Shown piece by piece: positions 10,391-17,348 of a DNA stretch of 45,531 nucleotides. The translations under genes and the position numbers were made by a program. This stretch comes from Chthonomonadaceae bacterium (lineage in GTDB: Bacteria > Armatimonadota > Chthonomonadetes > Chthonomonadales > Chthonomonadaceae): the NCBI GenBank assembly GCA_025352825.1, contig JANXSG010000164.1, positions 1 to 45,531 of the forward strand, given 5' to 3'. Positions within the stretch are counted from its first letter, which is position 1. Every line of letters begins with the position of its first letter. A model generated the notes under the pieces. That model was not told where the DNA came from, did no database searches, and saw only the letters and a program-made list of their open reading frames with translations.

Positions 10391-10779
10391 CTGAACCCCC
10401 CTGTTTGGTGGATAATCTGCGAAGGACGATAGTGCGCCCGAAGTCTAAATGTATGTACAATTGGACGTTCAACTATTGGAGATGGTTACTCACTGCATAA
10501 TTACAAACTGCATATGACCATGCGGCACTTGTAAGGGATGCCCCAATTACGAACATTATAATCCTCTCATCATATTCGTGTCAAGCATTAATGATTCCTG
10601 CTCTTATTCAATAATATAGAAACTGTTTTATGTAAAGAGTTATAGTCTTCACATCCTCCGTTCAAATGCTTCCTTATAAATCGCTGCACACTCTCTTCTG
10701 GCGTTGTGATATAATTGATTTCAGTTCTACGACACTTCAGCAGGATATTCAACGTCGGATTTGGGAGAGCAGTATTAAT
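10391..10779. promoter_or_regulatory. Divergent intergenic region upstream of the ECF sigma gene
   Basis: The gap separates the minus-strand propeller gene from the plus-strand sigma factor gene. TATAAT at 10710-10715 is a plausible -10 element for the sigma gene, but the -35 match is poor. The frame of the sigma gene stays open from an ATG at 10666, upstream of this element, which argues against that ATG as the start. A regulated promoter recognised by the sigma factor itself would be expected here. Confidence 0.4.
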
Positions 10780-11361
10780 TTGAGCAGTTTCACACCTGGA
10801 AAACAGGAGTACCGAGAGAGCGAGTTTGAAAAACGACTCATTAAGCGATTCCAGGCGGGGGAGTCGGAGGCTCTCGGCCCGCTATTCGAGCTGTATGTCG
10901 AGCATATTTTTGCTTTTGCCAAGCATCTTCTTGGCAGCAGAGAAGATGCGGAAGAGGTGACTTCAGACGCTTTTGTGCGCGCCCTGGAGAAGGTGAGCAG
11001 TTTCCGCGGCGAGTGCCCGTTTCGTGGATGGCTCTTCGGTATCACCCGCAATCTCTGTTATGATCGCCTTCGGCAGCCAAAACTTCTGCTTATGGAGCCG
11101 GAGGCAGCGGATAGGCAGTCTGACCGAGGGCGCGATGCTAGGCGCATGGAAACTTCCACGGCAGTTCGAACGGCTCTCAATTCGCTTTCAGAGGATCATC
11201 GCATGGCGCTGCTGCTGTGCGATGTTGAGGAGTGGGATGCGCTGGAGGTGGCAGAGATGCTGGGTAAATCGCTGCAGGCCACCAAATCGCTGCTCTATCG
11301 GGCACGGCGTGCCCTAAGGAATCAGCTTTCCCCGGCATGGGGAGAAGGAGTAGAGACCTAA
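10780..11361 (+). CDS. ECF-family RNA polymerase sigma factor
   Basis: A group-4 sigma-70 protein of 193 residues from the TTG at 10780. Region 2 covers LIKRFQAGESEALGPLFE through EEVTSDAFVRALEK to FRGWLFGITRNLCYD, and region 4 covers ALNSLSEDHRMALLLCDVEEWDALEVAEMLGKS and LYRARRALR. TTG is preferred since GGGAGAG lies ten bases before it and a TATAAT lies between it and the in-frame ATG at 10666; that ATG would add 38 poorly conserved residues. It directs RNA polymerase to a stress or envelope regulon. The stop is one base before the start of the zinc-finger anti-sigma gene, so the two are cotranscribed and probably partners. Confidence 0.9.
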   Translation: MSSFTPGKQEYRESEFEKRLIKRFQAGESEALGPLFELYVEHIFAFAKHLLGSREDAEEVTSDAFVRALEKVSSFRGECPFRGWLFGITRNLCYDRLRQPKLLLMEPEAADRQSDRGRDARRMETSTAVRTALNSLSEDHRMALLLCDVEEWDALEVAEMLGKSLQATKSLLYRARRALRNQLSPAWGEGVET

Positions 11362-11362
11362 A

Positions 11363-11671
11363 TTGACTTGTGACAATGTACAAAAATTGACCGACCTCTA
11401 TCTCGATAGCCAGCTTCCGGAGGAGCTAACCGCTGATTTCGAGACGCATCTTGCCACGTGTAAAAGCTGCACGAGTGAATTGCAGTCACTGATTCAGGCA
11501 CACGACTTCCTGCTTGCGGGCGTTGCCCCTGCCGAAGTCTCCCCTGCCTTCCTCGAACGCACCACCGCCAAACTCTACGATATCTTCGCCGACCGTCTCC
11601 ACTCCAGCGCTCCCAAAGAGTTCGACCGCCAATGGACACTTCCATTCCTCTATGAAGATGAGCCAGTGTAA
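11363..11671 (+). CDS. Zinc-finger anti-sigma factor (zf-HC2 type)
   Basis: The 102-residue protein carries the anti-sigma zinc-binding signature: Cys3 near the N-terminus, DLYLDSQLPEE, then FETHLATCKSCTSEL with the H-x3-C-x2-C ligands. It follows the ECF sigma gene with a one-base gap, the normal arrangement of a sigma/anti-sigma pair. It has no membrane helix, so it would act in the cytoplasm, perhaps as a redox- or zinc-responsive (ZAS) anti-sigma that releases its partner on oxidation. The start is TTG, and the ribosome site overlaps the end of the sigma gene (GGAGAAGGAGTAG). The C-terminal half (residues 50-102) is not conserved in an obvious way. Confidence 0.85.
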   Translation: MTCDNVQKLTDLYLDSQLPEELTADFETHLATCKSCTSELQSLIQAHDFLLAGVAPAEVSPAFLERTTAKLYDIFADRLHSSAPKEFDRQWTLPFLYEDEPV

Positions 11672-12401: not shown

Positions 12402-12950
12402 ATGCTAAATGCCAGACAGCTTCGCCTCCACGCAGACTATAAGGGTGTAGCCGCACTCTCCAAAGGCAGCGATGGAAGGCTCATGATCGAAGAAACCAGA
12501 GGCCGCCCCACCGATGAGTATGTTATCGTCTATCGGTGCCGGAGTATCGAACGGCTGGAAGACGGGCGGCCAATCTATCGCGACCTGCACCGCGTGAAGA
12601 TAGTGCTGCCCGCAAAGTACCCCGCGCCCACATCCCCGCCCAGAGTATCCATGCTCACACCACTCTTCCATCCCCATGTCTACCGCAATATGGAAGTCTG
12701 CATGGGCAGTTGGGTAACCAGCGAATACCTTGAGGATTTTTTGGTACGCCTTGGCGCGCTGATACAGTACGACCGACGCTTTCTAAACGTTCACGACCCG
12801 GCAAACGAAGCGGCAGTATACTGGGCCAATAGCAATCTGCTCCTGCTGCCCACGGATTACCAAACCTTTGGCAAAGAAGAGCCTACGGAACAGATTGCGC
12901 CTGAAATCGAAACTCCTCAGGAGTGGCTCGATATTTCAGACCCTTCATAG
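12402..12950 (+). CDS. Ubiquitin-conjugating enzyme E2-like protein
   Basis: The 182-residue protein matches the UBC fold in order: a helical start, strand region DEYVIVYRCRS, then the E2 hallmark stretch PAKYPAPTSPPRVSMLTP, FHPHVYRNMEVCMGSW with candidate catalytic Cys100, and a C-terminal helical part (EDFLVRLGALIQYDRRF, NEAAVYWANSN) that mirrors the eukaryotic L-L-x-x-P-N-x-x-x-[AP]-x-N pattern. The canonical HPN triad reads HPH here. An E2 carries a ubiquitin-like protein as a thioester and passes it to a target. An in-frame TGA at 12390 fixes the start at ATG 12402. The next gene is a JAMM peptidase 14 bp on, a pairing typical of bacterial ubiquitin-like systems. No E1 or ubiquitin-like gene is visible in the window. 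Confidence 0.85.
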   Translation: MLNARQLRLHADYKGVAALSKGSDGRLMIEETRGRPTDEYVIVYRCRSIERLEDGRPIYRDLHRVKIVLPAKYPAPTSPPRVSMLTPLFHPHVYRNMEVCMGSWVTSEYLEDFLVRLGALIQYDRRFLNVHDPANEAAVYWANSNLLLLPTDYQTFGKEEPTEQIAPEIETPQEWLDISDPS

Positions 12951-12964
12951 GAAAGGATTATCGA

Positions 12965-13744
12965 TTGGCAATCAGTCCGGGGATTTCTGGAGTGCTCGCA
13001 GTGGTCGGCGCTGCTGCCCTTATATTGAGAACCATTCTTATTAAAAAGCGGTCAGTGAAATCGTCACCTGTTGAACTCCGGGATGAGATGATCGAAAAAG
13101 ATATTCAGGATGGGCCTATACTAAATGAATCTTTTCTACGCCGAGTTGTGAATGATTCGGCGAATCGGCAAACGGCTGTCGATATCGACTGGGAGGAACT
13201 CTCGGACGGCTACCGGCCCCAACCTCTCCGAACCTCCGAATTCTATTCTACATATAGTATCGAACCAAATCTGAATTTAAAGAAAAGTGAACCCATTATA
13301 TTGGTTCGAAATAGCGTATTCGAAGAAATTCTTAATCATCTTAAATCAGATACGAGTGTAGAGAAAGGAGGTTTACTCATTGGCAAAGCATATGATGATG
13401 CGCACGAGTCTAGATATATGCTTCAAATAACCCACCAATTTGAAGCCAATGCAGGATTGGAAACAAGTGCCACATTCACCTACACCCCTTCCACCTGGGA
13501 GCAGCTTCTTCCTCAAATAAAGAGTCTGTCTCCTGATACCACCATACTTGGCTCTTACCATTCACACCCCGATATGGGAGTCTTTCTCTCAATTACGGAT
13601 ATGGAGGCTCAAACAGAGATATTCAATGCAGATTGGCAAGTGGCTATGGTGGTCGATCCCGTGCGAAATGAAGCTGGATTCTTTATTGGTATGGAGGGCA
13701 CGAAGTGCGAAAACTGGCAGATATGGGACGATAAACTGCACTAA
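12965..13744 (+). CDS. Membrane-anchored JAB/MPN (JAMM) metallopeptidase
   Basis: From TTG 12965 (AGGAAAGGA just upstream) the product has 259 residues. The JAMM zinc motif is complete: Glu133 in VEKGGLLIG, and His199, His201, Ser209 and Asp212 in SYHSHPDMGVFLSITDM, an exact H-x-H-x7-S-x2-D. The domain spans about 108-250. Residues 4-26 form one hydrophobic helix followed by KKR, which suggests an N-terminal membrane anchor with the enzyme probably cytoplasmic. JAMM enzymes of this kind process or remove ubiquitin-like proteins. It follows the E2 gene by 14 bp, so both are cotranscribed. An in-frame GTG at 12923 overlaps the E2 gene and has no comparable ribosome site. Residues 30-105 are a variable linker. 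Confidence 0.88.
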   Translation: MAISPGISGVLAVVGAAALILRTILIKKRSVKSSPVELRDEMIEKDIQDGPILNESFLRRVVNDSANRQTAVDIDWEELSDGYRPQPLRTSEFYSTYSIEPNLNLKKSEPIILVRNSVFEEILNHLKSDTSVEKGGLLIGKAYDDAHESRYMLQITHQFEANAGLETSATFTYTPSTWEQLLPQIKSLSPDTTILGSYHSHPDMGVFLSITDMEAQTEIFNADWQVAMVVDPVRNEAGFFIGMEGTKCENWQIWDDKLH

Positions 13745-16721: not shown

Positions 16722-16961
16722 ATGCAATCTGACAATTTGTGGAATGATTTCTCTGCTTTACCTGTAGATGCACAACGGCAAGTTACAGAGTTAATCGCAA
16801 ATCTCCGCCAGCGTTATCTACAGCAACAACCTAAGAAGAAGCTGAAAAAACTTGATCTGCGCGAGGAACCATTCATAGGGATCTGGAAAGATCGCGAAGA
16901 TATGCAGGATAGTTCAGCGTGGGTGCGCAATTTGCGCGAGAGCGAGTGGAAAAATCGATAA
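16722..16961 (+). CDS. DUF2281-like antitoxin
   Basis: The 79-residue protein has an N-terminal helical part (LPVDAQRQVTELIANLRQRY) and the C-terminal text PFIGIWKDREDMQDSSAWVR with NLRESEW, which is the usual tail of DUF2281/VapB-like antitoxins paired with PIN toxins. The tail normally threads into the toxin's active site. ATG 16722 has GGGAG about 11 bases upstream. Its stop is followed directly by the ATG of the PIN-domain gene, so the pair is one operon. It would neutralise the toxin and probably repress the promoter, which must lie in the 96 bp after tyrA. Confidence 0.85.
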   Translation: MQSDNLWNDFSALPVDAQRQVTELIANLRQRYLQQQPKKKLKKLDLREEPFIGIWKDREDMQDSSAWVRNLRESEWKNR

Positions 16962-17348
16962 ATGGATACAGAACTGATAGACACCGATATCCTAATCGAA
17001 GCTATTCGCAGTATGCCGCAAGCTATCGATTGTCTGGCAAAATATGATCAACAGTCTATTCTCGCCATAAGTGTCATCACTCAATTAGAACTGATGGTAG
17101 GTTGCCGAAACAAATCTGAACTTCAAAAGTTGGAGAAGTTTCTTCGAAGATTTAAAATAATTACTTTAAATGATCAAGCCTCCCAAATTGTAGCTGATCT
17201 TATCAAAAAATATCGCCTTAGCCACGGGCTGCTAATCCCTGATGCGCTCATTGCAGCAACGGCTTTATCGTATGATTTACCATTTTTAACCAGAAATCAG
17301 CGAGACTTTCGCTTTATCACTGGACTGAATTTGCTGTCATACCCTTGA
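16962..17348 (+). CDS. vapC: PIN-domain toxin, VapC family
   Basis: The 128-residue protein has the four acidic positions of PIN ribonucleases: Asp7 in LIDTDILIEA, Glu43 in ITQLELMVG, Asp94 in LIPDALIAATAL and Asp115 in the NQRDF stretch. The length is typical for VapC (about 130). Such toxins cut tRNA or rRNA when freed from the antitoxin. The start codon follows the antitoxin's stop without a gap, a normal toxin-antitoxin layout. All catalytic residues are intact, so the module looks active. It opens a short accessory patch that also holds an orphan nuclease and a dead MazEF pair. Confidence 0.9.
   Translation: MDTELIDTDILIEAIRSMPQAIDCLAKYDQQSILAISVITQLELMVGCRNKSELQKLEKFLRRFKIITLNDQASQIVADLIKKYRLSHGLLIPDALIAATALSYDLPFLTRNQRDFRFITGLNLLSYP

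Follow-up and report, generated by a model that had tools for sequence, protein, structure and literature searches.

The adjacent E2-like and JAMM genes of the window (the whole 45.5 kb stretch of DNA analysed, contig C21 of a 4.87 Mb genome in 298 contigs) very probably encode two of the five components of a bacterial ubiquitin-like protein (Ubl) conjugation pathway, whose genes are spread over three loci of the genome: E2-JAMM (C21), Ubl (C63) and RING-like-E1 (C163). The best explanation is that the E2-JAMM system belongs, with its genes scattered, to a known kind of system that was predicted for bacteria in 2006–2011, and is not a new two-gene pathway. The initial annotation had described a compact two-gene module without E1 and modifier, a description that falls, since an E1 (C163) and a Ubl (C63) are present in the same genome and lie beside E2 and JAMM in relatives. 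It had also allowed for partners elsewhere and had taken a distant conserved E1 and modifier locus as the mark of a known kind of system, merely split; that is the outcome found at C63 and C163.

When a bacterial E2-JAMM pair has no E1 or Ubl beside it, the pathway may nonetheless be complete: its components can be inherited together without being linked, and therefore operon-based surveys undercount such systems. The case supplies a bacterial Ubl pathway that can be tested and lies outside the known systems of defence. It has a clade-specific E2 with HPH, its membrane segments recur, and it bears on how eukaryote-like conjugation arose and on the uses that bacteria make of conjugation.

The E2 and JAMM genes of the window

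The two genes and their main features are as follows.

12402..12950, + strand: E2 ubiquitin-conjugating-like enzyme, 182 aa (Pfam UQ_con, predicted UBC fold)
12669..12677, + strand: HPH tripeptide, E2 residues 90-92, replacing canonical HPN (alignment, subfamily tree)
12699..12701, + strand: Cys100 codon, predicted thioester cysteine of the E2 (conservation)
12965..13744, + strand: JAMM/JAB metallopeptidase, 259 aa, predicted Ubl processing and deconjugating enzyme (Pfam; co-occurrence with E2)
12986..13042, + strand: predicted N-terminal membrane helix of the JAMM, then KKR (hydropathy 2.19)
13361..13363, + strand: Glu133 of the JAMM site (invariant)
13559..13600, + strand: JAMM motif HSHPDMGVFLSITD (H-x-H-x7-S-x2-D; His199, His201, Ser209 and Asp212 invariant)

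The E2 exceeds the Pfam cut-off for UQ_con (E 4.7e-7), and its family profile finds eukaryotic E2s in the PDB (human UBE2T, UBE2L3 and UBC9; E about 1e-6), in whose alignment Cys100 coincides with the catalytic Cys and HPH with HPN. An AlphaFold model built from 8 sequences (five models, pLDDT 46 to 82, best mean 81.8) matches E2 structures with a Foldseek probability of 1.00 and TM-scores up to 0.68. Identity of the window E2 to seven relatives is 48–62%. The 8 close E2 relatives all share Pro91, His92, Asn96 and Cys100, and nearly all relatives in the phylum also have Cys at the Cys100 position. By profile and predicted structure, the protein is a member of the E2 superfamily with a UBC fold, and Cys100, downstream of HPH in the HPN position, is its predicted catalytic residue. 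Thus, what had been proposed for this gene from its letters stands: profile search and structure prediction both return an E2, the HPH variant occupies residues 90-92 as described, and Cys100, whose loss in close homologues would have spoken against an E2, falls on the eukaryotic catalytic Cys and is kept in 8/8.

The JAMM reading frame begins with TTG, 14 bp after the E2 stop and on the same strand, so the spacing given in the initial annotation agrees with the ORF coordinates; a GGAAAGGA stretch sits 7 bp upstream of the TTG. The protein exceeds the Pfam cut-offs for both Prok-JAB (9.6e-9) and JAB (2.4e-7). Its metal-motif residues and Glu133 are complete and invariant in close relatives, which bears out the JAMM call, and the HxHP..S..D pattern is present in 67/71 JAB hits across the phylum loci (some of these 71 being repeats or fragments).

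The membrane helix noted earlier is real in the window protein (best 19-residue Kyte-Doolittle mean 2.19), and as it is followed by KKR the catalytic domain is predicted to be cytoplasmic. By hydropathy, the helix is also strong in G018, weak in G017 and absent in G013-G015 and G028. The membrane anchor is therefore no constant feature of the JAMM family, because these last four relatives have a well-defined start (that of the G027 JAMM is uncertain). Among the phylum loci, a strongly hydrophobic stretch occurs in 28/71 JAB hits (some repeated) and in 13/17 RING-like hits, and the Prok-RING_1 proteins at Armatimonadota loci likewise carry such stretches. This is suggestive of membrane attachment recurring across the phylum on differing components, not as a fixed trait.

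A tblastn search of the whole window, with the actual partner proteins as queries, returned no relative or remnant of E1, Ubl or RING-like genes (best E 0.07), in line with the local absence of E1 and modifier reported before. Promoters did not exceed shuffled expectation. Upstream of the E2, an ECF sigma factor is followed by a zf-HC2 anti-sigma-like gene (10666-11671). At 16722-17348, a small gene directly precedes a PIN-like protein; judged only by eye, the two look like VapBC toxin-antitoxin genes.

Partner genes elsewhere in the genome

A profile of the small protein (~85 aa) from the operons of relatives has exactly one match, the Ubl, in the window genome, at C63:15472-15717 (E 1.6e-33), next to genes that look like fatty-acid synthesis and other genes. 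The E1 profile matches C163:1610-2728 (648 bits), directly after a RING-like gene.

C163:1203-2755: RING-like-E1 gene pair, the E1 start overlapping the RING-like stop by a few bases (ORF coordinates)

Hence E1, Ubl, E2 and JAB are all present in the window genome, and they are genetically linked in relatives. The E1 resembles ThiF/MoeB; judged from operon relatives, it consists of a ThiF domain and a four-Cys C-terminal region and has an invariant Cys within RxSCxG. The RING-like domain falls just under the Pfam cut-off for Rtf2 (E 1.4e-5, 25.0 bits versus 27.4) and has six conserved Cys, not eight ligands. The three contigs C21, C63 and C163 have a GC content of 0.47-0.475 and tetranucleotide correlations of 0.94-0.95, and these correlations argue for a single genome.

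The Ubl of G017 is predicted to adopt a beta-grasp fold, with SUMO and the Caldiarchaeum ubiquitin bound to its Rpn11 homologue as best PDB matches (Foldseek). Among 8 genomes, the Ubl ends exactly in HG in five, in HG + GG in G027 and in HG + ANTGTNVI in G018; that of the window genome has HG before TNEPSS. The tail beyond HG suggests processing, by analogy with Caldiarchaeum. More distant Ubls end mostly in AG or AGG. A terminal Gly is not universal, because the ends YVAA (one pair of relatives) and EVS (one cyanobacterial copy) occur. The best Pfam match of the Ubl is YukD, at 18.7 bits under a cut-off of 27. Its neighbours are not T7SS-like, and with the score below the YukD cut-off it does not qualify as a YukD/EsaB protein of type VII secretion.

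Other candidate partners in the genome were set aside. Proteins similar to a MoeB-like E1 on C24 are found in many class genomes without E2 and Ubl. A third ThiF match, on C287, is weak, in two pieces, and within a 357 aa protein of other context. ARC/Mpa-like matches to a proteasomal ATPase, under the curated cut-off, are found throughout the class, and therefore nothing links them to the E2-JAMM system as a dedicated partner.

Co-distribution and gene order in relatives

A single-sequence E2 scan of genome contigs gave no relative; with an alignment, we found E2 relatives in 7 other genomes among the 31 examined in the class. The Ubl is present in 8/31 genomes (G000, G013, G014, G015, G017, G018, G027 and G028), and E2 and JAMM are in exactly the same 8/31, a count that leaves out two distant E2s of another system. 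The full-type E1 is found in these 8 and in G016 (64% complete). The survey of related genomes for third genes, ThiF and beta-grasp proteins thus returned an E1 and a Ubl that co-occur in the same 8/31 genomes, and a RING-like gene adjoining E1. The chance of an identical distribution is ~1 in 8 million for 8/31 genomes, 1 in 24,310 for 8/17 family members and 1 in 462 for 5/11 family genera, the last being the fairest figure because of relatedness.

G017, G028 and G018 have one operon, RING-E1-Ubl-E2-JAMM (in G018 a contig end cuts the JAMM; the G027 contig starts inside E1). In G013-G015, of another genus, E1, Ubl-E2 and JAMM are spread over three contigs, so the window genome is not alone in having dispersed genes. 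The order RING-E1-Ubl-E2-JAMM also occurs in another Armatimonadota family (L117) and in a Betaproteobacteria-labelled MAG (L082). Viral contigs contained no relatives. The plasmid search gave one cyanobacterial relative by E2 and none by Ubl: the mobilizable Crinalium epipsammum plasmid pCRI9333.03 (L131, 38825-42302) carries E1-Ubl-Ubl-E2-JAB, with a hydrophobic segment at the C-terminal end of the JAB.

In G017 and G018, the five-gene operon is preceded (at L021:3098-7142 and L020:6279-10224) by conserved genes resembling an ATP-grasp/alpha-E/transglutaminase cluster and a GlnB-type protein, identified by eye only.

Comparison with known systems

Burroughs, Iyer and Aravind reportedly predicted bacterial RING/E1/E2/JAB operons with a YukD-like Ubl in 2011 (Mol BioSyst 7:2261). 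The system described here shares with them a separate E1, E2 and JAB, a RING-like protein and a YukD-like Ubl; it differs in that the genes of the window genome lie in three loci, its E2 has HPH, and the RING-like domain of the window clade is Rtf2-like, not Prok-RING_1 (PF14446), a domain that does occur in Armatimonadota relatives. In 2006, Iyer, Burroughs and Aravind had predicted operons of bacteria that combine E1, E2, JAB and Ubl (PMC1779556). Their type 6d (Ubl, JAB, E1, E2) likewise has four separate components and a small Ubl ending in Gly (PMC1779556). However, the 6d E2 has no upstream His and relies on one downstream instead, whereas the window E2 keeps the upstream HP, and the 6d helical protein is not seen in the window system. 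Caldiarchaeum subterraneum has a Ubl, E1, E2, small RING protein and JAMM, with a tailed Ubl precursor (PMC5654768, PMC6043591), and its ubiquitin is a top Foldseek match of the Ubl model. Its system is archaeal, with parts near the eukaryotic ones and a di-Gly end, while the window system has an HG end and HPH.

Alternative explanations

A 45 kb window devoid of any partner would suit a stand-alone E2-JAMM module that has neither E1 nor modifier and is perhaps a new pathway linked to the membrane. Gene content already refutes this reading, since the same genome has partners at two further loci, the components are perfectly co-distributed, and relatives keep all five genes in an intact operon; its probability is close to nil. 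One may also suppose that the genes really form one operon and that the three-way split is an artefact of assembly or binning. The assembly does consist of 298 contigs, and the RING-E1 pair is 1.2 kb from a contig end. However, the E2-JAMM and Ubl loci are each flanked on both sides by >6 kb of unrelated DNA and therefore cannot adjoin each other or E1; moreover, the three relatives of another genus also split E1, Ubl-E2 and JAMM over three contigs. We regard such an artefact as very unlikely.

Anti-phage defence like that of CBASS type II (Cap2/Cap3), Bil or Bub would use the same toolkit of Ubl, E1, E2 and JAB and the same conjugation chemistry; the JAB and E1 match PADLOC E1-E2/JAB models weakly to moderately, and a related operon is on a mobilizable plasmid. 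Cap2 is a fused E1-E2, whereas E1 and E2 are separate genes in the window system and its relatives. CBASS, Bil and Bub stand in a defence context; none was seen for the window system: the neighbours examined include no recognised CD-NTase or effector, the genes are spread among ordinary chromosomal genes with no defence island, and viral contigs contain no relatives. The active site of BilB is Cys-Glu-His-His (Glu at +6, His at +8 and +13 from the Cys; PMC11354881), a spacing that the window E2 lacks, having Thr106 (+6) and Glu108 (+8) after Cys100. The defence libraries (PADLOC, NCBIfam) gave no specific assignment of the E2/JAMM system, all NCBIfam defence models being below cut-off. Defence of this kind is accordingly an improbable reading. 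Slightly less probable still is that the Ubl serves as a structural protein or sulfur carrier akin to YukD, with the E2 as a mere binding partner and no protein conjugation. YukD is indeed the best, below cut-off, Pfam match of the Ubl and is reported as not conjugated (cited in PMC1779556), and the E1 resembles ThiF/MoeB. Against this, the catalytic Cys is invariant in E1 and E2, as are the JAMM residues; a RING-like partner is present; secretion or thiamine/molybdenum genes were not seen adjoining; and separate MoeB-like E1s exist elsewhere in the same genomes.

Proposed pathway

From the presence of the genes, their predicted folds, residue conservation and exact co-distribution, we infer the catalytic steps, tail cleavage, E3 role, substrates and outcome of the favoured dispersed conjugation pathway as follows. 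The Ubl would be made with a short tail (..QPMPTHG|TNEPSS), which the JAMM would cut after His-Gly. The E1 would adenylate the exposed Ubl glycine, link the Ubl by a thioester bond to the conserved E1 Cys (RxSCxG) and hand it to Cys100 of the E2, where the transition state may be stabilised by His92 of HPH in the role that Asn has in HPN. The Rtf2/RING-like zinc protein could act as E3 in the transfer of Ubl to substrate amines, and the JAMM, predicted to be membrane-held in the window species, may also strip the tag, making the pathway reversible. The reconstituted Caldiarchaeum system works likewise, including removal of the pro-peptide by JAMM (PMC5654768, PMC6043591). The flanks of the three loci differ among themselves and look like ordinary chromosomal genes, and no substrate or role could be read from these neighbourhoods. 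We favour, with low certainty, a cellular, non-defence role in protein modification.

The HPH subfamily and related loci

In a midpoint-rooted tree of 47 E2s, the HPH/NPH sequences group with the cyanobacterial plasmid E2 (HPN) with a support of 0.999, separate from the HPN E2s of other Armatimonadota; deep branches inside the group are weakly supported. The HPH/NPH group comprises the window's family, another Armatimonadota family and the Betaproteobacteria-labelled MAG, and the order of its HPH members is RING-E1-Ubl-E2-JAMM wherever the set is complete in one place. By phylogeny, HPH marks an E2 subfamily with a common gene order. HPH is otherwise typical of eukaryotic Ube2W, in which the second His is thought to act in the stead of Asn (PMC4630614, PMC11649903). 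Ube2W and the window E2 both have HPH for HPN and a catalytic Cys downstream (PMC4630614), but Ube2W is absent from the best sequence or structure matches of the window E2; the common HPH is likely convergent at the motif. Whether it alters the acceptor, as in Ube2W, is speculation by analogy. There is perhaps some chance, though a small one, that this HPH-E2 Ubl subfamily prefers alpha-amino or non-lysine sites like Ube2W, acts at the membrane through the anchored JAMM and RING-like protein, and serves as a dispersed chromosomal, non-defence pathway of housekeeping or quality control.

Other gene arrangements were noted among the surveyed loci. L022:850-10852 (G020) and L023:767-10956 (G018) encode a RING-like protein, E1, E2, a ~290 aa protein, JAB, an Mpa/ARC-like AAA ATPase and two Dop/PafA-like Pup-ligase-family proteins. 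No Ubl was recognised in this operon, which joins E1/E2 conjugation with pupylation-type enzymes in one cluster. L111, L112, L113, L118, L119, L120 and similar Armatimonadota loci often contain two or three JAB genes and, in several cases, two E2s, a trypsin-like protease and a membrane-bound Prok-RING_1 protein per cluster. The second E2 at L128:7309-8154 has Phe at the expected Cys position.
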